Program-made: the position numbers and the translations under genes
The notes under the pieces: model-generated
The model's database searches: none
Seen by the model: only the letters and a program-made list of their open reading frames with translations
What the model was told of the DNA's origin: nothing
Shown here: one piece after another, positions 39,568 to 60,187 of the stretch
Layout of the letters: each line of letters opens with the position of its first letter
Numbering within the stretch: the first letter of the stretch is position 1
Source: a virus
Strand: one strand, 5' to 3'
Length of the DNA stretch: 64,000 nt
IMG/VR virus record: IMGVR_UViG_3300010885_052266
Location: 36,880-100,879 of that record

Positions 39568-40395
39568 CTACGACACGAGCTTCGGCTTCTTGAAGGTCAG
39601 CACCCCCTGCCCTTCGATCGCGGCGCGATGCTCGGCGATCAGGGTCGCTCCTTCAGCTTTCATCCACCCCTGGATCGCGCTCGGTTGGAAAAGGTACCGG
39701 CCCGACTCTCTGCTGATGCGAACCGCGTCAGGAAGCTCTCGGTCCAGGCACCAGCGCGTAAGTCGGCGGCTGCATTTCTGGGATAGCGCCCGGCGGCGCT
39801 TGGTTCCGATACCGTGCTCGATCAGAACCTCCAGCATGGGACGGTACGCGATGGCCGCTATGCGGGGATCGGCTTCGACGATCATCGTCCGCACCTGGTC
39901 GGCGAGATTTTGAACCACCGCATCGGTGGTGTGTGCCTGAACGGCGAGGTGTTGAATCGCCGTGGCCTGTTCGGTCAGCATCTTCCCGACAACCGCCTTG
40001 ACGATACCGCCGATGGCGTTTCGGACTTCGTCGGGCAGAGACGGGCCTTGACCTGGCGCGGCGTAAGAGCCGGTCTGGCGAATCGAGGGGAGGACGTCAT
40101 GGCGGATCCAACGGTCGAACCGTCGAGCCTCGGGCTTTCGGCTGCGTAGGATGACGGAGTAGAGGCCGGGCTCGTTAATGAGGGTGACGGTCTTCGCTCC
40201 GTTGAAGCCTGGGACTCCCTCATTATTAGTGAGGGAGGTCTTCTCATCGTCGTCCAGTTTGGTCGCGGCCTGAGACGGATTGTTAATGCCCAGCGCGCGG
40301 CACACGTCGGCCAGCACCCACCATGGAGCGTTGTCACGCACCATAAGGCGCACGCGGGCCTCCTCGAACATGAGCGGAAGCAAACTACCTGCCAC
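39568..40395 (-). CDS. Bro-N domain antirepressor-like protein
   Basis: 275 residues from GTG 40395, ten bases after AGGAGG; TTG 40383 and ATG 40371 are alternatives. The Bro-N domain (about 9-100) is clear: RVRLMVRDNAPWWVLADVCR, ALGINNPSQAATKLDDDEKT, TLINEPGLYSVILRSRKPEA and FDRWIRHDVLPSIRQTGSYA. The C-terminal half has MTEQ-like helices and GWMKAEGATLIAEHRAAIEG. Such proteins bind DNA and often act as phage antirepressors. A truncated second copy of the N-terminal half and its leader lies directly upstream. Confidence 0.85.
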   Translation of the reverse strand: MAGSLLPLMFEEARVRLMVRDNAPWWVLADVCRALGINNPSQAATKLDDDEKTSLTNNEGVPGFNGAKTVTLINEPGLYSVILRSRKPEARRFDRWIRHDVLPSIRQTGSYAAPGQGPSLPDEVRNAIGGIVKAVVGKMLTEQATAIQHLAVQAHTTDAVVQNLADQVRTMIVEADPRIAAIAYRPMLEVLIEHGIGTKRRRALSQKCSRRLTRWCLDRELPDAVRISRESGRYLFQPSAIQGWMKAEGATLIAEHRAAIEGQGVLTFKKPKLVS

Positions 40396-40469
40396 AACGA
40401 CCTCCTGCATATAATGCGGACACCACATTGATATGTAGCACGACATCGCGCAACCCCCGTCGCCCACAG

Positions 40470-40769
40470 GACCTCGGCGGTGACCCACTTCTTGAAACGC
40501 CTCGCCGCAGGCTTGCGGCTGCGGAAGATCAAGGAGTAGAGGCCGGGCTCGTTGATTATGGTCGGAAGCGAGGCGCCGGCCGCTAACCCATTGATTTTGG
40601 CACCCTCGGCATTACCGAGGGTCTCCTTCTCGTCGTCGTCGAGGCGGCCGGCAGCATCACTCGGATTGCTGATCTCCAGCACGCGACACACATCCGCTAG
40701 CAGCCACCATGGAGCGTTGTCACGCACCATAAGGCGCACGCGAGACTCCTCGAACACGAGCGGAAGCAA
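40470..40769 (-). pseudogene. Truncated duplicate Bro-N domain
   Basis: From TTG 40769 the frame encodes a complete Bro-N core (RVRLMVRDNAPWWLLADVCR, SLPTIINEPGLYSLIFRSRK, ARRFKKWVTAEV) but then runs into the leader of the intact copy and continues as nonsense to 39975. The two copies align with a constant 386-base offset, including about 80 bases of leader, and differ at many positions. The start corresponding to GTG 40395 is GCG here. A short Bro-N-only protein might still be made. Confidence 0.75.
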
Positions 40770-44377: not shown

Positions 44378-44985
44378 TACCGGGCCTGCACGTCCCAGGC
44401 GCTGGTCAGCACACCCCAGAAGACCGGCCGGACATTGACCACGGTGCGCCATGCTTCATCGACGTAGAGCTGCTGGTCCATGAGCGGCTTCGTCGTGTTG
44501 AAGGACGGCATCCTGACGAACAGGTCGCCGGCCAGGATACGATCGTTCGTCATGCTGATCGGCGCGCCCGTGAGAACGACCCAAACCTGCTGGTCGGCCA
44601 CCCAGGTCGGCACGATCACGGCGCCATCGGCCTGGTTGGATGGCAGCGGGGCGGCGAGGGAGACGGCGGCGAACCCCGGGTTTGGCGTGACGCTCGGGTC
44701 CATGGACGGGAGCCGGGCAGTCGCCGTGGCGGAGACGGTGATCGGATCGAGTGCACCGATCTTCAGCTTGTCGCCCGCAATGATACGGCCCGTGGCCTGG
44801 CCGGCCCGGATCGCGATGGTGGTGGCGCCGGACGAGTGGTTCCCATCAAGCACTGGCGAGACCAGCACGGCCGGGTTCGGCGAGACGCCGTTGACCAGCG
44901 TGGTCCGGCGCAGCGTCACCCGAGTCCCGCGTCGCTCGACCGCGTCAGCGTAGCGGCGGATGATGGTATCGTCGCCGGTCGTCAC
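44377..44985 (-). CDS. Head-tail connector / stopper-like protein
   Basis: 202 residues from GTG 44985, overlapping the upstream stop (GTGA). The start reads VTTGDDTIIRRYADAVERRG, and the body is beta-rich with TWVADQQVWVVLTGAPISMT, ILAGDLFVRMPSF and a C-terminal WRTVVNVRPVFWGVLTSAWD. Its size and place directly after the gp6-like connector gene suggest a head completion or stopper role. It is longer than usual because of a Thr/Ala-rich middle part. Moderate confidence. Confidence 0.6.
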   Translation of the reverse strand: MTTGDDTIIRRYADAVERRGTRVTLRRTTLVNGVSPNPAVLVSPVLDGNHSSGATTIAIRAGQATGRIIAGDKLKIGALDPITVSATATARLPSMDPSVTPNPGFAAVSLAAPLPSNQADGAVIVPTWVADQQVWVVLTGAPISMTNDRILAGDLFVRMPSFNTTKPLMDQQLYVDEAWRTVVNVRPVFWGVLTSAWDVQAR

Positions 44986-45536
44986 GAGACCCAGGCCCGC
45001 GATACCGAGCCTTGCAGCAGGGAGACCGCTTGTGGTGGCACCGAGCCTGGACCGGTCGGCCAGAAGCCGGCCCCGCCGACACCGACCCAGGACTCGCTGG
45101 TGGCGTTCATGTCGATCTTCCTGGCGTCCCACATGGCCTTGACCGTGTATTTCGTGGCCAGCTTCACGGTCGCGGGAACAGCGTCCTCGCCGCCGGAAAA
45201 CACCACGGTCACGTTCTTGATCCCGCGCGGGAACTTGCCCTGCTTCCAGATGACCATGTGATCGTCGAACGTGAGCTGCGCGACCGGGATCGCGCTCTGC
45301 CCGTCGATCGTCACCGATGTCAGGGACCGGATCGGCCAGCCATTGACCGGCAGGGTCGGCCCACCCCCGCCGCTCAGGGCCTCGGTGCGGGTCGCTTGGA
45401 GGAGACTGCGCCGGCCCAGGATGTGCAGGCACTCATCCGATGCGGCCGTGACCAGGGTCGCGATCAGCGCGTCCCTGGCCGAGTCCGTGATGTCCAGCCA
45501 ATCCTTGGCTTCGGCGAGGGTGATCAGATCCGGCAC
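44982..45536 (-). CDS. Head-tail connector (HK97 gp6/QLRG-like)
   Basis: 184 residues (MPDLITLAEAKDWLDITDSA). The N-terminal TLAEAKDWLDITDSARDALI pattern followed by ATLVTAASDECLHILGRRSL is the classic gp6-like connector signature; the middle has LPVNGWPIRSLTSVTIDGQS. The protein joins the portal ring to the tail. A four-base overlap with the next gene couples translation. Confidence 0.85.
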   Translation of the reverse strand: MPDLITLAEAKDWLDITDSARDALIATLVTAASDECLHILGRRSLLQATRTEALSGGGGPTLPVNGWPIRSLTSVTIDGQSAIPVAQLTFDDHMVIWKQGKFPRGIKNVTVVFSGGEDAVPATVKLATKYTVKAMWDARKIDMNATSESWVGVGGAGFWPTGPGSVPPQAVSLLQGSVSRAWVS

Positions 45537-45541
45537 AGGGG

Positions 45542-46117
45542 TTATTCAGCCTTCGGCGTGTCGGTCGTGATGGCCCCAGCCGCGATCTCATTGGCGATCG
45601 GCGGCGTCTCTGGTTCGATGACCAGCCCATGCGGATCGAAGGTGAGGGTAGCGGCCTCGGCATCCGGCGTGTCGGGGCGAGGCTTCGATTTTCGCCCGGG
45701 GGCGCCGCCTTTCTTTGCACCCGGGGCATCACGTCCGCCCGCGCCAGTCGCGTCATCGCTGGGAGGTTCTGATAGCGCTGGGGCAGAGCCGGCGGACGGT
45801 TCGCGCTCATCGAGCGTATTGACCACCAGTTCGCGCAGATATGGGAGCGTGGCGCGCCCGTCGAGGACAACGCCGTGCATCCGCAGCAGCTCGCGGAGCA
45901 GGCGCTTCTCGGCCAAGGGGTCGCCCGCGACCTCGGCATCTCGGGCGTGGACCGGTTCCGCGATGCCTTTGAGGTTGTGATGATGGGGTGATTCGAGATC
46001 GCTGTAGACCTCGGGGGGAAGCCCGTCGGGAACGGTGATCTGGTCGTCGTCATCGCCGACGAACGACATGCCCTGCACCGAAACCGAGGCGACGCCTGGT
46101 GGTAGCTGATATCGCAT
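45542..46117 (-). CDS. Hypothetical protein of the head-tail region
   Basis: 191 residues (MRYQLPPGVASVSVQGMSFV). ATG 46117 follows GTGAGGCAGCA. An N-terminal beta-like part with FVGDDDDQITVPDGLPPEVY is followed by a helix, EKRLLRELLRMHGVVLDGRA, and a Pro/Ala/Lys-rich disordered end. It lies between the capsid gene terminator and the gp6-like connector. Related small proteins occur at this location in many phages; the role is unknown. Confidence 0.6.
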   Translation of the reverse strand: MRYQLPPGVASVSVQGMSFVGDDDDQITVPDGLPPEVYSDLESPHHHNLKGIAEPVHARDAEVAGDPLAEKRLLRELLRMHGVVLDGRATLPYLRELVVNTLDEREPSAGSAPALSEPPSDDATGAGGRDAPGAKKGGAPGRKSKPRPDTPDAEAATLTFDPHGLVIEPETPPIANEIAAGAITTDTPKAE

Positions 46118-46180: not shown

Positions 46181-47656
46181 TCAGGCGGCGGACAGGTTGG
46201 TGATGATCCCCATCGACGGCGGGAAATAGTGCTGCAACACTTGGTTCGAGTAGACGCCATACTCGTAGGAGCGGGTTCGAATGGGCCATTCGACTTGGTG
46301 ATAGTCACGCAACGTCTTGATTTGCAGAATGTTGTTGACGTTGTTCATGGCGTAGGGAAGCGTGTTGGTCAGGAACATCACCGTGCCCGGCGGCATGTGG
46401 GGATGTTGCGTGATCGTCAGCGACTTCTGAGTCCCGTACGCGTTGGTGTACCCCAGCGGCGCCGCTGCCCCGATGACCTGCCCTTGCGGATTGAAGGTGA
46501 AGGTGAAGCGCGCGAGAGATGTTGCCGCCCCCTGCTGCACCATAATCTTCTTCAGGGTCGTGACTTCCTGCGTCGAGATCAGGATTTCATCCGGAACCAG
46601 GCGATGGGTGTCGTACCAGTAGCGGAGCGCGTCATCGAACTCGACGATGCCGCCCGCGCCGTCTGGGGTCAGCGACGAGCCGGCCGTCACCGCCTTGTAG
46701 TACGCCCCCATGGCGGTCTTGCCGACCATCCCCAGCAATCCGTCGTGGATCAGCGAGTCGGCCGAGAAGTCGAACGCGGTCAGGAGCGAAGCCAGCTGCG
46801 TGCCGCTTGGCAATGCCGTGATCACGGCCTGCGACACGGTGGTGATGGAGTGGAACCGCTCCGCCCCCGCCGTTCCCGCGTACCACGCATAGCCGCACGC
46901 GCCGCGCAGTGGGGTCACCTTGGCCGTCACCATGTTGGCCGAACCGGAGGCCGTTGCCGCCGAACCAGCCGCGGACGGGAGCGCCGTGCCACCGTTGATC
47001 GTCTCGACGGTGCCGTCCATGTTCTGGCGCTGGAACTGCTGGACGATCGACGATGTGCCGTTGAAGCGGCGCCACGCGTCGAAGGTCAGAGCGACACAGA
47101 TCACAGAGACAGTGGTCGGGTGGGCGATGGTCCCGCCGGAGGTCGCAACCGTCAGGCTTGGCGTCGGGGTCTGGCCGATCGGGTTGGTCGCATTGGCGCC
47201 GAGGATGATCTTCTCCTCCTCCTCGAACATGGAGTTCGTCAGCCCCATGACCGCACGGGCGCGGATGTCATCGAACCCTTGCGCCTGTTCTTCCGCCGTC
47301 ATCGTGGCGGACGATTCAAGGCCGATGGTTCGATACGCGGCATAGTATTCCGCAGTAACGGCATCGATCTGGCCACCACGGCGACCGTCACTGATACCTG
47401 CGTTGATCTGGTTGCTGTTATACTTCAAAATAGCCTTCCAGTTTGCTTGCGATCCCCCGACACCGGCCACTCGCGGGATTCTGTTCCGCAGCGGCGAGTT
47501 CCATGGGACCAGGTTCTTCACGGCCTGATCTAGGTCGTAAGTCTGGAGGCCCTGGGTCGGATTGGAATTGGCGGTGAAGGTCGCGGCCTTTGCCAGATCG
47601 CCCGCGCTCTTCGAGAGCGCATTGCGGACCAGGGCCAGGGTTTCAGCAGTACTCAT
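46181..47656 (-). CDS. Major capsid protein
   Basis: 491 residues. An N-terminal leader MSTAETLALVRNALSKSAGD ends at LAK (21-23), then AATFTANSNPTQGLQTYDLD begins the body. Other capsid-like parts are INAGISDGRRGGQIDAVTAE, FDDIRARAVMGLTNSMFEEE, LVPDEILISTQEVTTLKKIM and a C-terminal VEWPIRTRSYEYGVYSNQVL. It is set off by a terminator on each side, fitting high independent expression. The start lies right after a 16-base hairpin that contains the only ribosome-site-like GAG. Confidence 0.85.
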   Translation of the reverse strand: MSTAETLALVRNALSKSAGDLAKAATFTANSNPTQGLQTYDLDQAVKNLVPWNSPLRNRIPRVAGVGGSQANWKAILKYNSNQINAGISDGRRGGQIDAVTAEYYAAYRTIGLESSATMTAEEQAQGFDDIRARAVMGLTNSMFEEEEKIILGANATNPIGQTPTPSLTVATSGGTIAHPTTVSVICVALTFDAWRRFNGTSSIVQQFQRQNMDGTVETINGGTALPSAAGSAATASGSANMVTAKVTPLRGACGYAWYAGTAGAERFHSITTVSQAVITALPSGTQLASLLTAFDFSADSLIHDGLLGMVGKTAMGAYYKAVTAGSSLTPDGAGGIVEFDDALRYWYDTHRLVPDEILISTQEVTTLKKIMVQQGAATSLARFTFTFNPQGQVIGAAAPLGYTNAYGTQKSLTITQHPHMPPGTVMFLTNTLPYAMNNVNNILQIKTLRDYHQVEWPIRTRSYEYGVYSNQVLQHYFPPSMGIITNLSAA

Positions 47657-47675
47657 ATCACATCTCGATGTGACT
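47657..47675 (-). promoter_or_regulatory. Hairpin at the major capsid translation start
   Basis: On the minus strand TCACATC-GA-GATGTGA forms a 7-bp stem ending two bases before ATG 47656. The only ribosome-site candidate (GAG, seven bases upstream of the ATG) is inside it, so translation could be governed by this structure. Upstream sequence to 47835 is partly AT-rich and is the probable capsid promoter region. Confidence 0.45.
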
Positions 47676-47835
47676 TAAAGCCGCGACCCGACGGCGTAGA
47701 TGGGCCGGTCCTGTTGCTCTTCAGGGGTTTGACGAGCGCGCCGCGATCACTCGCTGGCACGGCTCAGGCGCCGGGGCCGGTGTACCCGTGTCAAGGACAC
47801 ATTTTTATGTTTTTGAGGATAAAATTCCGGGCAAA

Positions 47836-47864
47836 GAAAAACGGCGGCTTTGGGAGCCGCCGTT
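47836..47864 (-). terminator. Rho-independent terminator after the scaffold-like gene
   Basis: AACGGCGGCT/AGCCGCCGTT (47840-47849 with 47855-47864) around a 5-base loop is followed on the minus strand by TTTTTCTTTGC. It lies 23 bases after the stop of the scaffold-like gene. Confidence 0.9.
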
Positions 47865-47887
47865 ATCTCAGCGCGAGGGTCGAAGGA

Positions 47888-49405
47888 TCAGCGGTACTTG
47901 GCGAGTGCTACCTCGGGCGGTGTGCCGCGCTGGATTTTGTAGAGTGCCACAGCCCTGTCGTTCGGGTCCGTCATCTTCTCAAGCGTGTCCGCGATGGCCT
48001 CCTCGGTCATCGCGTCGGGATCGCCGCCGGTATCGACCTGCTTCTCCAGCTTGCCCCCCTTGCCCAGGACGGCTTTCGGCACCTGCGGCAGCCCCATCAC
48101 CTTTTCGAGCGTGGCGGTCAGGCTGGTCACCTGCCTCTGCAGTTCGGTGACCGCCGGGTCTCGCTTTGCCAATGTGCCGGTCGGGGCAGCCTTGGCGAAC
48201 GGGTTCTTTTTCTTCTTGTCCTCTTCGCTTTCACCGTCCGCGCCGGCCGTCGGTTCTTCCTTGTCCGCGCCGTCGCCCTGATCTTGCTCGGCGCCCTGCT
48301 CCGCGCCAGCCATTTGGTCCGGATCGTCTCCGGTCGCCGCAGGGTCAGCACCCGCATCGCCGCCTTGCAGCTGGCCCAACACGCCGTCGAGCTGGATCAG
48401 GGCTGCCGAGAGGCAGCGGCCGACGATGTGCAGAGCGCCGATCATGTCGGTCGGCTCTTCCTCGCCCTCGGCCGCCTCGTCGTCCGGCGCACCTTGTCCG
48501 CCTGGGGCACCCCCACCGGCACCACCCGTCATGCTGGGGTCCAACTTGCTGAGCTTGTCGTCACCATCGGGCTCGAACAGCTTGTTCAGCGCGGCCTCTT
48601 CCACGCCCACGGCCAGCAGCACACCGCATGCCTGATCCAGCATGGCCTGATCCAGCACGTCGGGATGGGTCGCGAACTTGGCCAGCTCCTCGGGCAGCGC
48701 CGTCATCAGCCTGACATCCGCGCCGTCGGCGGATTTCACCACCAGTTCCTGCATGCCATCGGGAGGGTCGTCATCGGTCAGGATGTCGACATGCTCATTG
48801 ACCGCGGCCCGCATCGCCAGTTCCGCGCCAGCCAGGCAGTAATCGAGATACGCCTCGACTTCCTCGGACGGCGTGTCGGTGGCCTCCTTGCCGCCCCCCG
48901 GTGCAGCGTTGCCGTACCACTCCTTGCCTTCCTTGATCGCGGCGATGTCGGCGGCGAGGCGGGAGACCATATTTGCGATGCGTCCGACCGTACCCATCCC
49001 CTTGAACAAGGGATCGGCTTCCTCGGGCGCCATCTTCGCGAGCGCATCGGCGACGACCGCCTCCTGCTCATCACTGATCGCCTCGGTCAAAGCATCGGTG
49101 AACTCGGTGAAGCTCTTTGCCAGCAGCTCGTCGCGGTCGTCACCGCCGGCGCCTACAATGTCCGTCACGCTCCTCGAAAGCGTGTCGACCATCGCCTGGA
49201 GGGTCGCGTCGGGCATACCAATGTCCTTCTTTAGTGTGGATGTGCCGTCCTTCGCCTTCGCGCGTCTGTTCCGGACGGCCCGCAACAAGCGCATGTTCAG
49301 GAGATGGCTGGTCGCCGGGACAAGGTGCTTCACCTTGCGCTCCAGATCGTAGCCTTGCAGGCCAACGGTCGGATTGGGATTGGCGGAGAAGGTGGCGCCG
49401 CTCAT
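47888..49405 (-). CDS. Scaffold-like internal head protein carrying a capsid N-terminal segment
   Basis: 505 residues from ATG 49405, overlapping the upstream stop (ATGA). Residues 3-35 (GATFSANPNPTVGLQGYDLE, then KHLVPATSHLL) closely match the start of the mature capsid protein (AATFTANSNPTQGLQTYDLD, then KNLVPWNSPLR). The remainder is acidic and helical, with a long Asp/Glu/Gly-rich segment (about 315-430) and a helical C-terminus ending PPEVALAKYR. Such composition fits a scaffolding protein, and it sits right before the capsid gene. Its LAK end resembles the proposed protease site. Confidence 0.65.
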   Translation of the reverse strand: MSGATFSANPNPTVGLQGYDLERKVKHLVPATSHLLNMRLLRAVRNRRAKAKDGTSTLKKDIGMPDATLQAMVDTLSRSVTDIVGAGGDDRDELLAKSFTEFTDALTEAISDEQEAVVADALAKMAPEEADPLFKGMGTVGRIANMVSRLAADIAAIKEGKEWYGNAAPGGGKEATDTPSEEVEAYLDYCLAGAELAMRAAVNEHVDILTDDDPPDGMQELVVKSADGADVRLMTALPEELAKFATHPDVLDQAMLDQACGVLLAVGVEEAALNKLFEPDGDDKLSKLDPSMTGGAGGGAPGGQGAPDDEAAEGEEEPTDMIGALHIVGRCLSAALIQLDGVLGQLQGGDAGADPAATGDDPDQMAGAEQGAEQDQGDGADKEEPTAGADGESEEDKKKKNPFAKAAPTGTLAKRDPAVTELQRQVTSLTATLEKVMGLPQVPKAVLGKGGKLEKQVDTGGDPDAMTEEAIADTLEKMTDPNDRAVALYKIQRGTPPEVALAKYR

Positions 49406-52400
49406 TCGGCTGGCCCCGAGAAACGGGTCATGGCGCGCTGCACTGCATTCGGATCGTATCCGGTGAACCAGGAGTGCGCGGCCCGCCCGAGTTCGGCCCC
49501 GGCCCATGATCCCGCGACCCCGCCGGCAAAGGCGCCGACGCCCCCGGCAAACCCTCCGGCGATGCCCCCGATCGTGCTACCCACGATCTGCCCCCCGGTC
49601 TCCGCCGCCATTCGACCCAGGGAGAATTCTTCCTCGACGCGCTCCGGTACGGGCTTCCCCGCGACGCGATACGCGGCTCGGGCCGCCGCATCCCCGGCAA
49701 AGTTCCCAACCGCGCCGCCGACCGCTGCCGCGGCCAGTTTGACCCCGGCTGACACGATCTGCGCCGGCCCAGGGAGGAACCGCTCGGCGATCGACATGGC
49801 GGCCCCGGCAGGAAAACCCGCCGCGACCTTGCTCGCCAGTTTGTTCGCAACCCCCACAACGGCCTGCTTTCCCGCCAGGTGATGCGCGCCTTGTTCGGCC
49901 AGGCGCTCCCCCGCGATGGCCGATACCTCGGTCGTGACGATATCGGCCTTCTTTCCCGCTACCGCACCCAGGAATCGGCTCGCGATCTCCGACGCCGCCT
50001 CCATCCCGGCGTTGTATCCCAGTTCACCGGAAATCCGGACCGGGTGGAGGCTCCCCATCGGGGCAGCGGCGACGGGTTTCGGGGCAGCGGCGACGGGTTT
50101 CGGGCGAGCATGCCGGACCATAGCGGCCCGACCCGGCGTCTGTCGGCGCTGAGTGGGTTGCCGCGGCGCTCCGGCCGATCCGCCGCCCGCGGGCGCAAAC
50201 TCACCGCCCTCGGAACTGCCCGCGCCGTGGCGCTGGTGCTTGGTTGAGTCGAACGCCTTGATCAGATCGTCGATGTCGTCCAGCTTCTCGACGCGGGCGG
50301 CCCGCTTGAGCTTCCGCGCTTCCGCGTCCAGTGAGTCATACAGGGCCGCGTCGGTTTCCCAGTGGCCTTCCTTGATGTGGTCCGCCGCGTTTCGACGCGA
50401 CTCCTGGCTCGATCCGGCGAACGCGTTCAGCGCATTCGCCGCGACGGTGACCGAGTCCTGCAAGCCAAGGCCGTGGACGCGCCCGACATGGGACGCTAAG
50501 ACCTTCACGACGTTCTGCACGTCCCGGTTCGATCCGGGCCAGTTGTTCGTGAGGGACCGCCCGAACCGGTTCGCGTGCCCCGCTGTCAGGTTTTCGAACT
50601 CTTCGTCGTCCCAGTCCTTCGGCTGACTGGCCGACTTCCGGACATTGTCCCGCACGCTCGGCCCGGCATCACCTTGCCCCGGGTTGCCCTGGCGCTGCTC
50701 TCCGCCCTGGCTCTGGCCTGCGATCTTCTTGTGGATCCCGAGCATCGTCTCCGGGGACAAGCCTTTCTGCACACCAACGATGTGCGCGGCCCGGTGCAGG
50801 TTCGCCTTTTCCTCGCGGTTCGGGTTGAACCGCAGCGCGCGATCCATCTCTGACGTCAAAGCGCGAGCGATCGCGCCCCTGTCGTCGGTGTTGAAGTCGG
50901 CCGCGTTCGGGAAGATCGAGTGATGGTTTCGAGGGACCTCGTTGGCCTTGGCCCGATTGGTCAGCAGGACGTAGCGCTGCTGCGGGGTCAGGACCTGCGC
51001 CTCATTGGCGAACAGCGATTTCAGCGCATGGAAATATGTGCGCTGATCATCACCACCCTTCTTGTCCGGCGTGAGATACAGGTTCTCGATATGCTGGCGC
51101 ACGGGCTGGCTCGCGCCCTTCGCGTCGCTGCCCATCTTGAGGTAGGCGACCCGCACATCGCCGGCGCCTGGGATGTTCTCCCGCACGATCGCGCCGGCCT
51201 TGCCGATCTCCGACAGGGCGCTCTTGACCATGTCCTTCACGGCCTGCGGCAGATTGTGGAGATCGCCGGTATCGAGCGCGCCACCGCCGCCTCCGCCGCC
51301 TCCGCCGCCCTCGGGACGTTCCCAGCGCCCGTCGCGGAGCGCGCCCTTGACTTGCGACATCTTGCCGCCCGACACGATCGGCCTGACCTGACCGTTCGTG
51401 CTGTCCTGTCGCTCGCCGTAGACGACGATTCGCTCGCCCTTTTCGGTGGGGTGCGGCGCGGTCAGGGCGGAGAACGACGCGCCGGTCAGCGCATTGGTGT
51501 CGGTTTCGATACTCAGGCCACGCGGGAACGGAGCCGGGGTCTTGCCGTCCTCCGGGCCGAGCACTCTGTCCTTGCCCCAGTTGAAGAGGTCCTTTGCCCC
51601 ATCCCCCGCCAACCCGATCAAGCCGATATTGCGGGTGGTTTTGATCCACGACGGCGAGAATCCACCCTTGCCGTCGGGCGTGAAGAATAGTTCGTGCGCC
51701 AGATCGGTCGCACCCGCGCGCGCCAGAGCCGTCTTGTCCGCGGCAAACGCGGCAAGGCGCTGCATGGTCGGGCGTTGCAGGAAGTCCCGAGCCGCCCCGG
51801 TCATCTGGGCCGTGGCCTGGCGCAGATCCTGCCGGATGTCAGCCGCCAGGGACTCCGGCATCAGGCGGATGCGCGAGCCAGGGGCCGGGTTGTCGAGCGC
51901 GTTCTGGTAATCGGTCACCGCCGAAGCGCGCCGGGCCCGCGCCAGGGCCAGTTCGCCACTGACCTCGTCCCAGGATGCTGTGGCGGCCGAGACGCGAGAA
52001 TCCAGGTCGGCCCGGACCGTCGGATCGATGTTCCTGCCGCGCAGAGCCGCCCGGGCATCCCGTACGGTTTGCAGCTCGCGCTGGACCTGGGACGCCTTGC
52101 GCTGGAGGCCCCGCACCTCGCGATGCAGCGCGGCCACTTTGGCCGTGGCGGACTTTGCCCCGCGCGGAACGCCGTGGGCCTCGGACATAACGGCAAGCGC
52201 GCCGAGGTTTCGGTTGGCCCGCTCCGCGATCATCTGGGCCTGCTTGCCCCGCGTCTCGGCAACAGTGGCATCGAAGACCCGCGCCGCCTTGTCCCTGGCC
52301 TTGGCACTGATGTCGGAGATGATCACGGCCTGATCCATGGCGGACGCGGCCGGGATTTTCTTGCCGGTGATCGGCGATACGATCCCGGCGCCGGCATCCT

Positions 52401-54423
52401 TCAGCTTCAGCGCGGTGGTGGATGCCTTCGCGTTCAGTTCCGCTGCCTTGGCCGTGGCGACGGAAGCAGTCTCGACCGCGGCCTCGGCCGCGTGCACCGC
52501 TTCCAATCCGGTCGTCCTGGCCAGAATGGCCTTGGCACTGGTCTCGGCCGTCTGCGCTTCTCCCCACGCGGCGGCGGTCTGCGCAACCGTGTCTTCCGCC
52601 GTCTTGATCTTGCCGAAATGGGCCGTGATCTGATCGTCGACGCCGTTGACCCAACCGGATCGGCCCTCGAACCAGTGCAGCGCCGTGGTCTGCTGCTCCG
52701 GCGCCAGATCCTTGATGGCCTGCTTGAACTGCGCCGGGGTGGCCCGCTCCGCGAAGGCCTTGATCTCCGACGCGGCCCGCGTGTCCTTCAGGTTGCGCTG
52801 GGGGATGCCGGCCTTGATGTCGGCCACCGAGCGCCAGGTCTTGCCCGCCTTGTCCGGGACCTTGAATTCATCCCAGAACGCCGCGATCGATCCGATCTTT
52901 TCGTTCACCTCATCGGCGATGCGCCGCTTGTAGTGCAGGTCGGTCGATGCCCCGTAACGCTCCATGGCGTCCCTGGCCGCCTTGAACTGCGGGTTCTGCT
53001 GGACCGCCTCGTCCAGCACAGTGTCGCGGGTCGCCAACAGGCGCTTCACGCCCCCTTGGCCAAGCCGGGTGTTGGTCAGGGACAGGCGACGATCGAACGC
53101 GTCCTTGGCCTTGCGGGCCGCGCCCTGCACCAGCTTAGCGTTTCCGCCGCGCAGCATGGCATAGGTTCCGAGCGCCGCGGCCGCGCCGCCCAGCACCGCG
53201 CCGGCCACCGCGCCATTCCGCGCGTTCGCTGCCGACGAGAACTTTCCGTCCTCATCACGATAGGGGTTGCCGCGCTTACGCCCCACGAGTTCGCCAACGC
53301 CAAGGCCCGCGGCGGCGCCACCGGCACCCCCTGCCAGGGCGCCGCCGATCCCGGCGAGGCCGGCCAGGACGAGGCGCCCACCGCCGGACCACATGCCTGG
53401 AACGCGCGGCACAGCCTTGGCGAGATCATCGCCGGCCGCGACCTTCTGGATGCGGCGATAGGAGGTTGCGTCGATCGACTGGGCAAATGGTTCCGGGTCC
53501 AGGACCGATCCTTTCCACGTCCGCTTGATCACCAGCGCGGTGGGGATCGCCAGCGCGACCATCATGGCGCCACGGCGCACGGCTTGCGCCCGAGGCGTGG
53601 CACCGCCGGAAGCGGCTGCGTCGCCCAGGAAGCGAACCGACCGGCTCGCGGCCCCGGCGACAAAATCACCGGCTAGTGCCCCCGCCTTTCTGCCCAACTC
53701 GGCCCCGGCGAGGGTCGACGAGCGGGCGCTTGCTTCTCGCGCCGCGGCCCCGGCTCGGAGCTTTGTCGCGAATGCTCCTGCCGCCCTGCTGCGAGCCAGA
53801 CGAGCGACCAGATCAGCGCCGGCCGCGAGACCCGATGTCGCGGTCGTGGCGCCGCGTGCCGCAACCCCTACCCCGATCCCGGCGGCGAGCTTTCCGGTCT
53901 GACCTCCAGCCCAGCGCGCGGCGCGAGCCACCAGACCATTCTCCTTTCCTCTCGCGAGACTGGTCACCAGGCCAATAGCGGCGACGGCGGACGTGCCGTC
54001 CCGGATCGAGACGGCCGCTTCTCGGTATCGGGTCTCCGGGATGATCGCAGCCTGAAGCGCGGCGTAGCCGGCATTCTGCTCTGTCAGCTTCTCATGCTCG
54101 CGCTGGGTCTTGGGTAGCGCGACAGACAGAGATGGCGACGGCGCGGAAGCGGCCGATGCGCCTCCTCCACCCTTCGCCTGGAACTTCCCATCATCATCCC
54201 TGGGATGTTCGGCTTCGTCGAAACCGTCTCTGGCGGCCTTGGCGAGCAGATGACTGTCGATCTTGGCCATGGCCGTGACGCCTGGGGTCCTGCCCTGATG
54301 GGCGCTGGAATAGAGCTTGCGCAGCTCCTGCAGCTTGACCGGGGCGCTGGGGTGCGCCTGGTTGTGCTGGATGACGCGATTGCGCAGCTCGCCGATCAGG
54401 TTGGAGTCGAAATGCGGCCGCAT
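49402..54423 (-). CDS. 1673-residue internal virion protein, ejection candidate
   Basis: ATG 54423 is chosen because it overlaps the protease stop (TGATG). Residues 59-81 carry the head-protein tag, HLLAKAARDGFDEAEHPRDD then DGKF; further tag versions are YRDEDGKFSSAANARN (internal) and IKAFDSTKHQRHGAG (near the end). Large parts are Ala/Gly-rich with hydrophobic stretches, and the C-terminus has a long glycine zipper (GGQIVGSTIGGIAGGFAGGV). Such features suit a protein packaged in the head that inserts into the host membrane during DNA entry. No known enzyme domain was recognised. Confidence 0.6.
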   Translation of the reverse strand: MRPHFDSNLIGELRNRVIQHNQAHPSAPVKLQELRKLYSSAHQGRTPGVTAMAKIDSHLLAKAARDGFDEAEHPRDDDGKFQAKGGGGASAASAPSPSLSVALPKTQREHEKLTEQNAGYAALQAAIIPETRYREAAVSIRDGTSAVAAIGLVTSLARGKENGLVARAARWAGGQTGKLAAGIGVGVAARGATTATSGLAAGADLVARLARSRAAGAFATKLRAGAAAREASARSSTLAGAELGRKAGALAGDFVAGAASRSVRFLGDAAASGGATPRAQAVRRGAMMVALAIPTALVIKRTWKGSVLDPEPFAQSIDATSYRRIQKVAAGDDLAKAVPRVPGMWSGGGRLVLAGLAGIGGALAGGAGGAAAGLGVGELVGRKRGNPYRDEDGKFSSAANARNGAVAGAVLGGAAAALGTYAMLRGGNAKLVQGAARKAKDAFDRRLSLTNTRLGQGGVKRLLATRDTVLDEAVQQNPQFKAARDAMERYGASTDLHYKRRIADEVNEKIGSIAAFWDEFKVPDKAGKTWRSVADIKAGIPQRNLKDTRAASEIKAFAERATPAQFKQAIKDLAPEQQTTALHWFEGRSGWVNGVDDQITAHFGKIKTAEDTVAQTAAAWGEAQTAETSAKAILARTTGLEAVHAAEAAVETASVATAKAAELNAKASTTALKLKDAGAGIVSPITGKKIPAASAMDQAVIISDISAKARDKAARVFDATVAETRGKQAQMIAERANRNLGALAVMSEAHGVPRGAKSATAKVAALHREVRGLQRKASQVQRELQTVRDARAALRGRNIDPTVRADLDSRVSAATASWDEVSGELALARARRASAVTDYQNALDNPAPGSRIRLMPESLAADIRQDLRQATAQMTGAARDFLQRPTMQRLAAFAADKTALARAGATDLAHELFFTPDGKGGFSPSWIKTTRNIGLIGLAGDGAKDLFNWGKDRVLGPEDGKTPAPFPRGLSIETDTNALTGASFSALTAPHPTEKGERIVVYGERQDSTNGQVRPIVSGGKMSQVKGALRDGRWERPEGGGGGGGGGGALDTGDLHNLPQAVKDMVKSALSEIGKAGAIVRENIPGAGDVRVAYLKMGSDAKGASQPVRQHIENLYLTPDKKGGDDQRTYFHALKSLFANEAQVLTPQQRYVLLTNRAKANEVPRNHHSIFPNAADFNTDDRGAIARALTSEMDRALRFNPNREEKANLHRAAHIVGVQKGLSPETMLGIHKKIAGQSQGGEQRQGNPGQGDAGPSVRDNVRKSASQPKDWDDEEFENLTAGHANRFGRSLTNNWPGSNRDVQNVVKVLASHVGRVHGLGLQDSVTVAANALNAFAGSSQESRRNAADHIKEGHWETDAALYDSLDAEARKLKRAARVEKLDDIDDLIKAFDSTKHQRHGAGSSEGGEFAPAGGGSAGAPRQPTQRRQTPGRAAMVRHARPKPVAAAPKPVAAAPMGSLHPVRISGELGYNAGMEAASEIASRFLGAVAGKKADIVTTEVSAIAGERLAEQGAHHLAGKQAVVGVANKLASKVAAGFPAGAAMSIAERFLPGPAQIVSAGVKLAAAAVGGAVGNFAGDAAARAAYRVAGKPVPERVEEEFSLGRMAAETGGQIVGSTIGGIAGGFAGGVGAFAGGVAGSWAGAELGRAAHSWFTGYDPNAVQRAMTRFSGPAE

Positions 54424-55004
54424 CACGCAACCCTCGCTCGCCACAGGTCGGAGAATGTCTTCGCCGGGGGACGCCACAACTGGCCGAACGTGCGTGCTAC
54501 GCCGTGTAGTGGCAGACGTTCTGTCATGCCATCCGCCTTTACGAGTTCAGCGAAGCGCGCAGTCGGGATGCAAGGGTTATCGACCAGGGAGATTTCGGTG
54601 ATGCGGGGCGTGTATCGCCGCAGGTTGCCATCCTGCCAGGATTTCGCGTATCCGCCACCCATACTTACACCAGTATATACTCCCTCAAGGCACTTTCTCC
54701 ATTCGTTGTCGTCAACGATTTTCATGACGACATCGACGGCCTTCTCGTCGTCGTTGAAGGTGATTTCCGTCACCTTCCCCGCCGCCGTCTTTTGGTGCAT
54801 TACGCGGACATTTCCCTTCGACAGGCCGTTCGACATGGTCGCCATCTCGTCAGACCATTTTTGAAACGCGGGCTTCGCGGTTGCGTAGTCCATGATTTCT
54901 TGACTCTTGTCCGCCACTTCCTGTGCGGCTCGCGCAATGACCAGGCGCCGCTCCACGTCAATCTTGACCAGCGGGATACTGAGCATGGGCTGTTGGCTGT
55001 TCAT
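54423..55004 (-). CDS. Prohead protease, XkdF type
   Basis: 193 residues (MNSQQPMLSIPLVKIDVERR). It has the XkdF-like serine protease pattern: DYATAKPAFQKWSDEM, NDDEKAVDVVMKIVDDNEWR, LEGVYTGVSMGGGYAK with the likely active Ser, and RYTPRITEISLVDNPCIPTA. LVKADG at 154-159 just after the domain may be a self-cleavage site. Proteases of this type cut scaffold and capsid leaders during head maturation. It sits centrally among the tagged head proteins. Confidence 0.85.
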   Translation of the reverse strand: MNSQQPMLSIPLVKIDVERRLVIARAAQEVADKSQEIMDYATAKPAFQKWSDEMATMSNGLSKGNVRVMHQKTAAGKVTEITFNDDEKAVDVVMKIVDDNEWRKCLEGVYTGVSMGGGYAKSWQDGNLRRYTPRITEISLVDNPCIPTARFAELVKADGMTERLPLHGVARTFGQLWRPPAKTFSDLWRARVA

Positions 55005-55017
55005 ATCGTCTCTCCGG

Positions 55018-55659
55018 TCAGCCGATCAGACTTAGGCGCGAGATTGTGCGGGTCACCGGGTTGCTCTCGACGGCCCCGCTGTAGGCACGCGCTGCCCGTT
55101 CGCCACCCACGGCCCCAGCCACAGCGCCGAGGATGGCCCCGCCTCGCCCGGCGCGTCGGCCCAGCCGCGCACCAAGGGACGCACCCGCCGCCGCCCCGAG
55201 CACAGCCCCGGTCGCGCGGCGTTTGATGTCGAAGAGCCGCCCGACAAAGGACAGCCGGCGGGCCTTGGCCGGATCGGGGTCGGCGGCTTTGCGTAGTGCG
55301 AGCCTCGCCTGCGCCGCGTCCCGGAGCATCTTCTCCCCAGGGTGAACCGGGCGGGCGGCGGCGGGTGCCGTCCCCTGCTCCGCCGGTGGCTTTGCAGCGG
55401 GCGGCTTCTTCGCGGGTGGCGGAGCGTCGATCGTCGCTCGGGCGCGGGCCAGCCAATGCTCGGCGATGCGCTTGCGCAGCGGGTCGGGTCCGTCGGCCCA
55501 TTTCATCAGCACGGCCTCGGATGCCGGATCGGACCACTGCGTCGCGAGCCGCAGCACATCCTGGGAAATGTAGGCGAAACGGACCGCATCGGGCCCGTCC
55601 GCCAGCTTCATCAGGTCGAGGACAATCCCGTCCAGGGCTTGATCGTCAGGTCTCGCCAC
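55018..55659 (-). CDS. Glycine-zipper internal protein
   Basis: 213 residues from GTG 55659, which follows GAGGAGCGCACC. A helical N-terminal half (VLDLMKLADGPDAVRFAYIS) is followed by a Pro/Ala/Lys linker and a hydrophobic Gly/Ala zipper, GAVLGAAAGASLGARLG and GGAILGAVAGAVGGERAARA. Such zippers mark membrane-inserting proteins, so a role in DNA ejection is plausible. It lies between the MuF-domain protein and the protease. No family recognised. Confidence 0.6.
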   Translation of the reverse strand: MARPDDQALDGIVLDLMKLADGPDAVRFAYISQDVLRLATQWSDPASEAVLMKWADGPDPLRKRIAEHWLARARATIDAPPPAKKPPAAKPPAEQGTAPAAARPVHPGEKMLRDAAQARLALRKAADPDPAKARRLSFVGRLFDIKRRATGAVLGAAAGASLGARLGRRAGRGGAILGAVAGAVGGERAARAYSGAVESNPVTRTISRLSLIG

Positions 55660-55674: not shown

Positions 55675-57969
55675 TCAGGGTGGCGCATCGGCCACCAGAC
55701 TGAAGCCGGACTGGGCAGCGGCGGTTCTCGGAACAAGGGCAATAGACATTGTGCAGCGGCAGCGCACAACTTGCCTGAGAGGCGCATCGGACTGGTGGGG
55801 CCACAGAATGCGGTCGCCGTTGGGCGCCACGAAGGGCGTGTAGAGACCGATCACCTGCTGACCGTGCAGCCCCACGTGATCCGGCCTGGTGCGGTCGTCG
55901 GTGGTCGTGGAGACCCACGTCTTGATGACCGTGAAGTCCATGTGCTCGTTCAGATAGTCCCGCACGGCATCGACGTGGCCATTGTTCGCGGCTCGTAACC
56001 CCTCGGTGCGTGCGATGGTGTTGGCCCGGAACGCGAGGTATCGGCGATGATAGGCGTCGACCATCTTGTTGATCTGGTCGTCGCCGAGCGGTGTGTCGGT
56101 GTCGATCGCGCGCGACACGGTGCGGTCGAACCGGGCGTCCCGCAGGGCGCGGCCCAGCGCATCGGGATCCAGCGCGGTCAGGGCGCGACGGTAGGAGACG
56201 ACATGGCCAGCCTGCACCGGGGTAAGCCCGATCGTCTGGCGCAGCAGGCGGGCCGTCACCTCGGTGGGCTGGCCCTGAAACGCGGCGTCCTGCAATACGG
56301 ACCGGATCGTCTGGAGCTGCTCGTCCGCCAGCGAGCCGGCCAGCTTGAGGCGATACTGGCGGGCGAAGGAGTTGACTCGCTCGCTGCCCGTGTCGAGCGA
56401 GACGCTGATCGTGCGGGGCGAGCCGTCGGCGCCCCGGGTCGCGACGGGCACCTCGACCCCCGCCCCGCCCCGCACCGCGGCATCCAATGGCCGGGTGGCC
56501 TGATCCAGGTCGGTCAGCAGCGTGGTGTGCAGGGCCGCGCTACGCTGAAGCAGACGATCGATCGGCAGCCGGGTCCAAGAGCCGAACATCTCGGCGATGT
56601 TCTGCGCCAGGCTGTTCTCAGCCCGTCTACCCGCGCGATACACGGCGTCGGCCGGATCGGGTGGGGGATCGTCGGCGGCCTTGGCAAGCGGTGGATTGGA
56701 GTGTTGCTCCAAGCGGGCCTTCCTGCGGTTCGCGACGAGGCGGTTGATTGCCGCGATGCCACCAGCCGCAACACCCGCGCCGGCGACAGCACCGGCACCG
56801 ATCAGCGCGATTCGCCGGTTGCCGCGCAGCATGGCGAGTGTCCGCAGGGCCGGGCGGACCGTCCAGCGCGCCACGGCATGCTCGCCGATCACGCGGTCCG
56901 AGGCGCGGGGCAGCTCGCGTTCGAGCCATGCCTGCAGCCTACCCGCCATCGGCGCCATTGCCGGCGCTTCTGGGGTTCCTCCCGTGGCGATGGCATGAGC
57001 CACTTCCCGCTGCGCTGACCGCCGGCTCGGCGATTTCGCTTGCCCCAGGTCGAGCGCCCCGAACCGGCGGTCCTGCAAATCGTCAAGCAGATTGCTCCGG
57101 AGCCGGCGCCGTTGCACGACGGTCGGGTTCCCGTCGATTACCACCTCATGCGCGGGATGATGCCGGTCAACATTCCGCACAACCTGCTCGATCATCGTCT
57201 GCCGAACCTGCGGCACCGGCAGGCCGAACTGTCTCATGATGCCACGCAGATGCCGACGAGGCGCTAGCCTGGCGATGTCCTCCACGTCCTTGATGGACGT
57301 AATGCCATGCTCGGCGAATTCGTCCGGGGCTTCGGCGATCATGTCGATAACGTGCTGCGGATTTCTCCACTCCACGATGGTCGGTCCCCGCACATGTCGC
57401 ACGTATTCCGGGACATGGGCGATGTGGACTTGCGCCTCGCGCATCTCAACGCGTGGCGCTCTGCCATTCTCGCGTAGGTCGGTGATCCGTTCCTCCAGAC
57501 CAGTGACCCTGTCTCGGAGGCGGCGCTCGCCCGCGGCATCGCTGCTGGCCCAGACCGGTTCACCACTCTCGGGATCCCAGAACCGCTCGGCTTTCGCGGC
57601 GATGTGTTGCCGAAGCTCGTATCCGGCCCGGTTGGCCCTGCTCCTCAGCGTGCGCAGCGCCGTAGGGATGAACTCGGCATTCCGCGGCGAACTGCTCAGC
57701 CCCCGCGCGATGCTCGCTTCCGCCGCGGCGTGACGGGCCTGACGAGCCCGGTTCTTGGCGCGCACTTCGCGGACTCGCGCCACCGCGGCTCGGACGTCCT
57801 GACTGGCAGCGGCCCGGATCGTGCGGACGCGGGACGCCGCGACAGCGCCGCCAGCAACACCAGCAGATGCCACCAGGGCTGAGGCACCAGCGGCTCCGGC
57901 GGCGGTCCAGCGCCCGTCCTCGTCCCGCGGCTGGGTCTGGTCATAGTCCTTGGCGAGGTCAAGCGGCAC
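55675..57969 (-). CDS. Polyvalent head protein with C-terminal MuF (SPP1 gp7-like) domain
   Basis: 764 residues from GTG 57969, overlapping the upstream stop by 11 bases. The N-terminus is MPLDLAKDYDQTQPRDEDGR, the head-protein tag. Ala-rich hydrophobic parts and a long helical middle follow. The MuF domain (about 600-745) shows RYLAFRANTIARTEGLRAAN, DDRTRPDHVGLHGQQVIGLY and a CRC end (RQVVRCRCTMSIA). MuF proteins sit inside the head near the portal, and some carry toxins or enzymes injected with DNA. An unassigned 400-residue middle region could hold an effector. Confidence 0.85.
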   Translation of the reverse strand: MPLDLAKDYDQTQPRDEDGRWTAAGAAGASALVASAGVAGGAVAASRVRTIRAAASQDVRAAVARVREVRAKNRARQARHAAAEASIARGLSSSPRNAEFIPTALRTLRSRANRAGYELRQHIAAKAERFWDPESGEPVWASSDAAGERRLRDRVTGLEERITDLRENGRAPRVEMREAQVHIAHVPEYVRHVRGPTIVEWRNPQHVIDMIAEAPDEFAEHGITSIKDVEDIARLAPRRHLRGIMRQFGLPVPQVRQTMIEQVVRNVDRHHPAHEVVIDGNPTVVQRRRLRSNLLDDLQDRRFGALDLGQAKSPSRRSAQREVAHAIATGGTPEAPAMAPMAGRLQAWLERELPRASDRVIGEHAVARWTVRPALRTLAMLRGNRRIALIGAGAVAGAGVAAGGIAAINRLVANRRKARLEQHSNPPLAKAADDPPPDPADAVYRAGRRAENSLAQNIAEMFGSWTRLPIDRLLQRSAALHTTLLTDLDQATRPLDAAVRGGAGVEVPVATRGADGSPRTISVSLDTGSERVNSFARQYRLKLAGSLADEQLQTIRSVLQDAAFQGQPTEVTARLLRQTIGLTPVQAGHVVSYRRALTALDPDALGRALRDARFDRTVSRAIDTDTPLGDDQINKMVDAYHRRYLAFRANTIARTEGLRAANNGHVDAVRDYLNEHMDFTVIKTWVSTTTDDRTRPDHVGLHGQQVIGLYTPFVAPNGDRILWPHQSDAPLRQVVRCRCTMSIALVPRTAAAQSGFSLVADAPP

Positions 57970-60187
57970 GGCGCAGCACGTCGGCGAGGGGAATGCGGAG
58001 ATCCGCGACCATCGCGTTCCGCTTCAGGCGCAGTTCCGGCGTCTCCGGGACTGGCGGCACCGGAGCAGGCCCGAGGAGGCGATCCACGTCGGCCAGCACC
58101 GAGGCGACGTGCGGATCGATGCGGCGACGGGCAGCACCAGGCTGAGGCGCTGCGCTGGACAGGATGCGGTCGGCCTCCTGCACCTGCGTCGCGACGCGAT
58201 CGTCGATGCAGTCGGACGGGGCGGCCTTGGTGAGCGGCTTCTTGGGGAATGTCACGGTGCCGAAAGCGCGGTCCTGCGCGTAGAGCGGCGTGAGCATCTT
58301 CGTATCGAAGAGCGCCACGTTCCTGCTCCGACCGATAGTGCCGTGATAGCCAGCCTCCTCCAGGATATTCTTCTGAGCCTCTGTCGGGTTTGTGTGCAGG
58401 GCCGACAAACCCGAAAAATCCCTTTTGGTCGAACCCCAGGAACCATTATGGCCAGCGGCCACCAGTCGTTCGTAGAAGGGCACCAAGTCCTTCGGCATTT
58501 TCCTCTTGTCGGTCGAGATGGCGTCCTCTGGAAAATCCAGCCCGAGTTCCAGCAACTTGGCCTTCGGGCTCACTTTGAAGGCGGTCACCGATCCCAGGGC
58601 CTCTTGCCCAGCCCCATACCCCCGGGTGACCTTCTTCTTTGTTGCCGCATAGACGGCGGTGTATCCTCGCGGGATAGGCGTGAAATCGTGTGTCGCAGGC
58701 GCGCCCCGCCACACGATTGTCCCTGGGTTGGCCTTGATCGCCGATCGAACCGCCGCCAGTCTCGACGCGCGGTCGATTTTCAGGGACTGCCCGAGAGAGG
58801 GAACGATAGCGGCCACCGCATTGCTTCCCAGCTTCGGTAGCGTTCTGGCTAGAATGGTCAGCCCTCGACCGTGACCTGTCAGACCGTAATACAAGCCAAC
58901 GGCCCCGGCGCCGGCCGGCCACACCATATTGCCTGCATAGTTCAGGCGATCCGACCAACTTGGGCCTACCCATCCGTCTTCAGGCCTTCGCCTTATGGCG
59001 GCTGTCGTTTCCATCGCAACCGACCCCACCGCGAGGGCTGAGGTCGCGAGAAGAGAGGCAGTGCCTCCGCTCCTGGCTAGGCCACGCAGAACGCGCCTTA
59101 TGGCGGGAGTCCCGCGCGGCATGGCCGCTGCGGCCACAATGCCCGCGTTAAGGCCCATGATCCCCACGGCGCCCCCGACAGATCCCAGGATCCCCTGGTT
59201 GACGGGAGATCTGAGCGGAGAGACGATGCTTTCCTTGAGGTCTGCCAATAATTTTCGGTTTTTCGGAGCGAACTTCCCGTCATCGTCCCGCTTAACCTTC
59301 GACTCATCACTGAGCGGAGAGACGATGCTTTCCTTGAGGTCTGCCAATGTTCCGGCGATCGTGGTGCCGCCCTTGCTCGCGAACTTCCCATCCTCGTCCC
59401 GCTTAACCTTCGTCTCGTCGAAGGCCTTCACCAGCACATCGTTCGGCCGCAACCGCAGACGCACCGCACCGGTCCGCTTGTCCCTGCGCTGGTCCGCGAA
59501 CGGCTTGCCGAACTCGGCCCGATACGGCTGCGATGCCCCCTTCAGATCCCCGGTGCGCATCTCGTTCCAGAGCCGCCGGCGTGTGTAGCGCATGAATGGA
59601 ATGAGCGGGGTCAGCTCCTCCTTCTGCGAGTCACTCATCCAGAAGTCGTAATCGAGCACGCCGAAATCGTGCAGCGCCAGCATGGCGGCATGATTGTAGG
59701 CGCGGTTGACGGCCCCAGGCGGCGCATCGGGCGGCAGGATCAGATCCCCGGTCCGACGCTTCATGGTGAACTTGTCCTTGATCCCGTGCACCGCGACGAG
59801 CTGGCGGGTCTCCTTCGCCTTGGCGATCGCGTCCTGGCGGTTCGATTGGATCACGCCCTTCAGCTTGCCGACCAAGGTCGTGTGCTGCTCGGGCGAAAGC
59901 GCCTTCGGTGCCTGCCATTCGATCTTGGGCGGCGCCTTGAACCAGTCCGCCGGCGCCTCCCGGTTCTTGCTGCCCGTGTAGGCTGTCGGCAGCTCGGCAA
60001 TCTTCGCGCCGATCCGCTGCCAGGACTCGCCCCGTGTCAGGGAGCGGCTCTGCGGGCGCGCGACCGTGGCCATGGGAAGCGAGCCCGCACCGGAGCCAGA
60101 GAACCGTCCCGCGTCGTCCCTGGTGTGCTTGGACTCATCCCACCGGTAGGACATCTGGAACTTGGCGAGGGGGAGCGATAGCGGCAT
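57959..60187 (-). CDS. Polyvalent head protein with ART-like domain
   Basis: 742 residues. The N-terminal tag is MPLSLPLAKFQMSYRWDESK then HTRDDAGRF. Two further tags follow a duplicated 33-codon unit: VKRDEDGKFASKGG (261-274) and VKRDDDGKFAPKNR (298-311), each followed by LADLKESIVSPL. Hydrophobic Gly-rich segments lie at 332-440. Residues about 487-630 resemble an ADP-ribosyltransferase: TIVWRGAP (Arg494), GYTAVYAATKKKVTRGYGAG, VSPKAKLLELG, and GYHGTIGRSRNVALFD. ART domains in polyvalent proteins are thought to modify host targets after injection. Active residues are not proven. Confidence 0.65.
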   Translation of the reverse strand: MPLSLPLAKFQMSYRWDESKHTRDDAGRFSGSGAGSLPMATVARPQSRSLTRGESWQRIGAKIAELPTAYTGSKNREAPADWFKAPPKIEWQAPKALSPEQHTTLVGKLKGVIQSNRQDAIAKAKETRQLVAVHGIKDKFTMKRRTGDLILPPDAPPGAVNRAYNHAAMLALHDFGVLDYDFWMSDSQKEELTPLIPFMRYTRRRLWNEMRTGDLKGASQPYRAEFGKPFADQRRDKRTGAVRLRLRPNDVLVKAFDETKVKRDEDGKFASKGGTTIAGTLADLKESIVSPLSDESKVKRDDDGKFAPKNRKLLADLKESIVSPLRSPVNQGILGSVGGAVGIMGLNAGIVAAAAMPRGTPAIRRVLRGLARSGGTASLLATSALAVGSVAMETTAAIRRRPEDGWVGPSWSDRLNYAGNMVWPAGAGAVGLYYGLTGHGRGLTILARTLPKLGSNAVAAIVPSLGQSLKIDRASRLAAVRSAIKANPGTIVWRGAPATHDFTPIPRGYTAVYAATKKKVTRGYGAGQEALGSVTAFKVSPKAKLLELGLDFPEDAISTDKRKMPKDLVPFYERLVAAGHNGSWGSTKRDFSGLSALHTNPTEAQKNILEEAGYHGTIGRSRNVALFDTKMLTPLYAQDRAFGTVTFPKKPLTKAAPSDCIDDRVATQVQEADRILSSAAPQPGAARRRIDPHVASVLADVDRLLGPAPVPPVPETPELRLKRNAMVADLRIPLADVLRRAA
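59211..59348 (-). repeat. 99-bp-offset direct repeat in the ART-like gene
   Basis: A 39-base block is identical at 59211-59249 and 59310-59348. Flanking sequence of each unit is similar as well, giving the doubled RDxDGKF plus LADLKESIVSPL module. Confidence 0.85.

Follow-up and report, generated by a model that had tools for sequence, protein, structure and literature searches.

How a separate scaffolding protein grips the phage shell, and how the head proteins packaged into that shell are chosen, is known for few model phages only. In phage lambda, the short scaffold Nu3 is produced from an in-frame internal start within the longer protease gene C. In HK97, the N-arm of the capsid protein is disordered in Prohead I, and in Prohead II it lies approximately where the scaffold was in Prohead I (PMC10275583), while the structure of D3 suggests the same sharing of one site by N-arm and scaffold (PMC12749128). 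Both phages combine an HK97-fold shell with cleavage between K and S, and in both the scaffold (delta) and the N-arm use the P-domain site in turn (PMC10275583, PMC12749128); their scaffold, however, is a part of the capsid protein with no sequence in common with the arm, whereas at the locus described here a separate protein copies the arm. In P22, 80alpha and phi29, one end of the scaffold touches the capsid near the N-arm helix, but the summary given in the D3 source speaks of binding in the neighbourhood of the arm and not of a copied arm sequence (PMC12749128).

The capsid targeting sequences (CTS) of T4 are short N-terminal peptides found on several head-internal proteins and tied to prohead proteolysis (PMC9026906). 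A shared N-terminal peptide is likewise observed here, on the scaffold, on protease fusions and on NUDIX/Acb1-like fusions. However, the T4 sequence is a propeptide that is cut off and works through core proteins (PMC9026906), whereas the arm copy resembles the mature N-arm, and the predicted cut lies before the segment, at a K on its N-side, so that the segment would stay on the protein. Encapsulin cargo-loading peptides are also short and dock cargo inside an HK97-fold shell (PMC8346489), but they are usually C-terminal, are unrelated in sequence, serve cellular shells and do not copy the shell's own arm; the present locus, which has portal, MuF-like and protease genes, is a phage head module and not a cellular shell operon. 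No prior report of a scaffold carrying a copy of the capsid arm was found in the open-licence papers searched.

The window, i.e. the whole 64,000-nucleotide stretch analysed here, belongs to a 100,879-bp virus contig (IMG/VR record IMGVR_UViG_3300010885_052266). Its head module comprises, in transcription order, the following features:

60407-62287, minus strand: portal
57959-60187, minus strand: 742-aa protein
55675-57969, minus strand: MuF-like protein
55018-55659, minus strand: 213-aa protein, weak glycine-zipper match
54423..55004, minus strand: head maturation protease (XkdF-like), a separate gene (phrog_9427, E 6e-11; phrog_34096, E 7e-5)
49402..54477, minus strand: 1691-aa protein, between protease and scaffold
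49402..49405, minus strand: ATGA overlap of the 1691-aa ORF stop and the long scaffold start
47888..49405, minus strand: long (armed) scaffold, 505 aa (ORF and family alignment)
49295..49396, minus strand: arm copy, scaffold residues 4-37 (BLASTP E 9e-10)
49217..49306, minus strand: variable basic linker, scaffold residues 34-63, with 9 K/R and 2 D/E
49224..49231, minus strand: internal Shine-Dalgarno-like AAGAAGGA, 7 nt before the internal ATG
47888..49216, minus strand: putative short scaffold, 442 aa, from the internal start M64 (49216), suggested by a conserved Met with Shine-Dalgarno (SD) sequence
46181..47656, minus strand: major capsid protein, 491 aa, predicted HK97 fold, phrog_13692
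47588..47656, minus strand: capsid leader, residues 1-23, ending at Lys23 (LAK), putative cut between K23 and A24
47483..47584, minus strand: capsid N-arm segment, residues 25-58, common to the scaffold (BLASTP)
45542-46117, minus strand: 191-aa protein
44982-45536, minus strand: head-tail adaptor

The 1691-aa protein gave no match in PHROG and Pfam searches, nor did its counterparts in related phages, proteins of 1250-1430 aa at the same place, match Pfam. The window protease can be aligned with the proteases of fused protease-scaffold proteins.

The capsid protein is predicted to adopt the HK97 fold: its AlphaFold2 monomer model (pLDDT 83, pTM 0.80) was matched by Foldseek to many phage capsids, including that of HK97, the best PDB match being the SPO1 capsid (E 1.8e-11), while a PDB sequence search with the capsid profile returned nothing useful. 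Among 45 diverse capsid homologues, the residue aligned to Lys23 is K in 43 and is preceded by a leader of median 27 residues; the arm that follows has roughly the consensus K-[SA]-xFxQSxSxTSGLxxYDLExxAKxLYPVxTPLRN. Because the HK97 capsid protein is cut at K103/S104 by a protease that acts between K and S (PMC10275583), Lys23 is by analogy a likely cleavage site of the same kind (K followed by S or A), and capsid residues 25-58 are likely to form the mature N-arm.

Scaffold residues 4-37 and capsid residues 25-58 are identical at 22/34 positions without a gap, and the local score of 105 is far above those of 1000 shuffles (mean 23, maximum 47). A search of the whole record with the capsid protein matched the capsid gene and the scaffold segment only. 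The resemblance of the two N-terminal segments, and the position of the capsid one behind a leader ending in LAK, had been claimed by a first-pass annotation and are borne out; its nearly gapless match also stood, although its residue numbers were off by one or two. Chance similarity was rejected on the BLASTP E value, the shuffles and a profile search of the loci described below. Beyond the 34 residues, the 505-aa protein and the capsid protein have nothing else of note in common, and derivation of the whole scaffold from the capsid was discarded because the likeness stops after the arm.

Scanning IMG/VR and GTDB contigs for the capsid yielded about 245 loci, and an arm-copy profile built from these was run over the ORFs of the first 165 (134 distinct). 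In this search, whose E values jump clearly from 5e-5 to 2.3, the segment occurred, apart from the capsid itself, solely in ORFs of head genes lying upstream of the capsid gene. The window phage and at least two dozen relatives carry the copy on a head-building protein, in five kinds of position:

A, N-terminus of a separate scaffold of ~490-560 aa: the window, L001, L010, L011, L014, L015, L017, L019, L021, L027, L028, L065, L071 and the bacterial contigs L184 (Acidocella) and L185 (Rhodospirillales)
B, N-terminus of a long fusion: L126/L131 (arm, NUDIX, Acb1-like, protease and scaffold), L120/L200, Bradyrhizobium sp. Tv2a-2 (arm, NUDIX, protease and scaffold), L118 (arm, protease and scaffold) and L230
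C, between protease and scaffold: Thermoanaerobacterium phage THSA-485A, Alicyclobacillus phage MMB025 and L022
D, C-terminus of a ~1500-aa upstream protein: L078 (Zeta-toxin domain match) and L046
E, short stand-alone ORF: L089, the sole locus whose arm has its own stop

A further copy stands at the start of a separate 251-aa ORF (L074). The scaffolds of class A are preceded by a large ORF of ~1250-1700 aa wherever the upstream DNA reaches far enough. Apparent new copies in L227 and L257 proved to be broken capsid ORFs and were excluded.

All 19 separate scaffolds found by capsid-only or scaffold-core-only searches begin with the arm copy: 15/15 found via the capsid and 4/4 new ones from scaffold-core-only queries (L270, L272, L273 and L274), the latter scan being run with two subsets of the 13-sequence core alignment because the full alignment was too divergent. 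Seven armed loci (L167, L169, L172, L177, L180, L182 and L183) were obtained with the arm motif as the seed of the scan and are left out of this count. Most fused protease-scaffold phages lack the copy, which is present in about 12 of 79 protease-bearing loci (a count with some redundancy), so that it is not needed in general in this capsid family. The same capsid family, with no arm copy upstream, also occurs in contigs of Neisseria gonorrhoeae (L237) and N. sicca (L236).

Conservation within the long scaffold is highest in the arm, with a mean top-residue fraction of 0.60 for residues 1-33, as against 0.28 for residues 34-63 and 0.37-0.52 for the core; a K/R-rich stretch follows the arm in nearly all relatives. 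The copies also appear to resemble the arm of their own capsid beyond chance, with a summed score of 1309 vs 1013 +/- 49 when permuted (n = 24) and a partial Mantel r of 0.43 (p 2e-4) after controlling for capsid-core similarity, a result to be read as support and not proof because the control is a linear one applied to related loci. About five of the 19 copies have drifted from the present capsid arm; in the exceptional clade L017/L019/L021/L027/L071 the copy has ceased to resemble its own capsid arm and is missed by the capsid-arm profile alone (E 1.5-62).

The scaffold gene adjoins the capsid gene on its upstream side, its core is acidic (45 D/E to 15 K/R) and its AlphaFold2 monomer model is predicted, weakly, to be helical (pLDDT 56); such a position, acidity and mostly helical prediction are those of a scaffolding protein. 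The 505-aa protein matches no PHROG or Pfam family, but its profile matches, at E 1e-3 to 1e-10, the C-terminal regions of several fusions of protease and scaffold, and from position, composition and this homology we infer that it is a scaffold.

In the separate scaffolds, a Met at the start of the core falls in one alignment column and is preceded by an AAGGAG-like sequence. An internal ATG with an SD match of at least 5 nt occurs in 12/14 loci, as compared with 4.6% of 984 other in-frame ATGs (Fisher p 3e-14), and most of the newly found separate-scaffold loci also have the internal Met and SD, an in-frame start with its own ribosome-binding site as in a Nu3-like nested gene. As a rule, little SD precedes the upstream start of the long form, which lies directly beside the stop of the gene before it or shares bases with that stop; in the window, the ATGA overlap points to likely translational coupling. 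Because the conserved internal ATG and SD precede the scaffold core, the gene probably gives two products, a long form with the arm and a short scaffold, and on the simplest reading of the sequence the long form would be minor and coupled and the short one major. The segment does begin the 505-aa protein, as annotated, but the scaffold proper probably starts at M64 and the segment lies on an upstream in-frame extension, a placement of the arm of separate scaffolds that is new here. Lambda C/Nu3 has a similarly nested short scaffold, but its extension is a protease, whereas here it consists of ~63 residues of arm and basic linker; in L118, the same design of arm and internal start precedes a protease-scaffold. 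A stand-alone arm peptide in the window was rejected because the frame runs open through ~30 variable codons into the scaffold, as in all separate-scaffold loci. A programmed frameshift joining the 1691-aa protein to the arm was also rejected, because the needed shift is not constant: start and stop overlap by 4 nt at some loci, but elsewhere by a single nucleotide or not at all. No slippery site was seen at the window junction.

We favour, at a probability of roughly 55%, the reading that the shared segment is a surrogate capsid N-arm, by which the long scaffold docks on the N-arm site of the HK97-fold shell. Binding, its site, displacement, packaging and the two products with their ratio we infer as follows. 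The scaffold gene would give an abundant short scaffold, from the internal ribosome-binding site, and a scarcer long form, coupled to translation of the upstream gene, that carries the copy of the mature capsid N-arm and the basic linker. In the procapsid, the capsid's own arm would still be tied to its leader and mobile, and the arm copy of the long scaffold could settle on the inner face of the shell, at the N-arm site, and thereby anchor the acidic helical core. Once the protease cuts the leader after Lys23, the freed capsid arm would take the site and the scaffold would be released. Such docking is supported by HK97 and D3, in which the N-arm takes the place of the scaffold once the latter is gone, and by the K at or next to the capsid's cleavage position in copies inside a polypeptide, a residue for which the N-terminal copies of separate scaffolds have no need. 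Against it stand the disorder of both arms, that of the scaffold and that of the capsid, in the AlphaFold2 monomers, the drifted clade, and the absence of the copy from most fused protease-scaffold phages. The first-pass annotation had proposed a shared binding surface, which is the best-supported of its readings because the segment is present in 19/19 scaffolds, tracks its own capsid arm and is portable, and because HK97 and D3 share such a site. Its other proposal, an origin of the scaffold in a duplicated 5' end of the capsid gene, is not supported, given that only the ~35-residue arm is capsid-like and that the core is homologous to protease-scaffold C-termini and has its own internal start. 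It had suggested comparing relatives, and the segment is absent only from fused protease-scaffold phages, not from separate-scaffold ones. An arm-carrying scaffold gives a directly testable rule, namely competition for the arm site.

In relatives, the same tag on protease-scaffold or enzyme-bearing head proteins could dock those cargoes, and the copy seems to be a portable docking tag, holding internal proteins on the shell during assembly. A broader and more tentative possibility is that a copy of the mature capsid N-arm forms a general encapsulation code for the scaffold, the protease and packaged NUDIX, Acb1-type anti-CBASS or toxin-domain proteins, docking on the N-arm sites of the shell and kept in step with the capsid by co-evolution. 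The arm would then be made as an extension upstream of an internal start, or be freed by the prohead protease, and the docking sites might be those left vacant around the portal vertex. The tag on NUDIX/Acb1-like fusions and on the Zeta-toxin-domain protein suggests a use for cargo, and packaging and injection have been proposed for related 'polyvalent' head proteins (PMC5512222). As a sequence tag, the copy could allow packaged proteins, including anti-defence enzymes, to be predicted from genomes, and it suggests a ready peptide for cargo loading into this family of HK97-fold shells.

Among the alternatives, it is unlikely that both proteins carry the segment as a recognition site which the prohead protease reads as K-(S/A)xFxQ...SGLxxYDL, with the cut after K. 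The near invariance of that K in capsids would fit, as would the K at or next to the capsid's cleavage position before copies inside polypeptides (THSA-485A, MMB025, L022, L046 and L078) and also before the N-terminal copies of L118 and L126, and the cut of the HK97 protease between K and S (PMC10275583). However, the copies of the window and the other separate scaffolds are N-terminal, with no preceding K and nothing to remove, and yet are conserved. Moreover, HK97-type cleavage sites are not known to need a 30-residue consensus.

We consider it improbable that the arm is mainly an encapsulation tag for internal or injected proteins, the long scaffold of the window being one cargo or the adaptor of the 1691-aa protein. 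The copies on NUDIX/Acb1-like fusions and at the end of the Zeta-toxin-domain protein, the stand-alone peptide in L089 and the resemblance to the targeting sequences of T4 internal proteins (PMC9026906) agree with such a role, but in all separate-scaffold loci the arm is fused in frame to the scaffold core and not to an enzyme, and the enzymes in arm fusions come with protease and scaffold too.

At the residues in common, codon identity is close to the expected value in most loci (12/20 in the window, 8.6 expected) but high in MMB025 (11/13, expected 4.6, z 3.9), L074 and L120, and the pooled z is 3.2, so that some local copying happened. These loci, and the DNA identity of about 69-74% between the window arm segments, would agree with a recent event, a chance duplication or gene conversion that copied the capsid 5' end to no functional effect. 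Such an origin is nevertheless very improbable, since the segment is common to very distant phages, is the most conserved part of the long scaffold and is present in 19/19 separate scaffolds, mostly without raised codon identity. The likeness seems to be mostly old and at the protein level, with occasional recent copying, and a cleavage motif alone or a simple recent duplication fits less well than a surrogate N-arm.

Several further features were observed. One ORF of L126 (2743-5700), and of L131, joins arm, NUDIX, Acb1-like and prohead-protease domains, the Acb1-like domain being of the anti-CBASS type and named RNA ligase in PHROG, and one ORF of L120 (2386-5067, the same region as L200) joins arm, NUDIX and protease; judged from their domains, such ORFs would be unusual fusions of a possible anti-defence enzyme with a head protease. 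In the window, the motif xRDxxG(K/R)(F/W) occurs six times on the minus strand (60121, 59401, 59290, 57927, 54201 and 53259), is confined to three large proteins of the head region (742, 764 and 1691 aa), in which it often lies close to the N-terminus, and may be a further head-protein signal. At 39568-40769 (minus strand), two adjacent ORF stretches have similar N-terminal segments, LPLMFEEARVRLMVRDNAPWWVLADVCRALGINNPSQAA and LPLVFEESRVRLMVRDNAPWWLLADVCRVLEISNPSDAA, which presumably resemble BRO/antirepressor N-terminal domains, and the arrangement looks like a tandem duplication.
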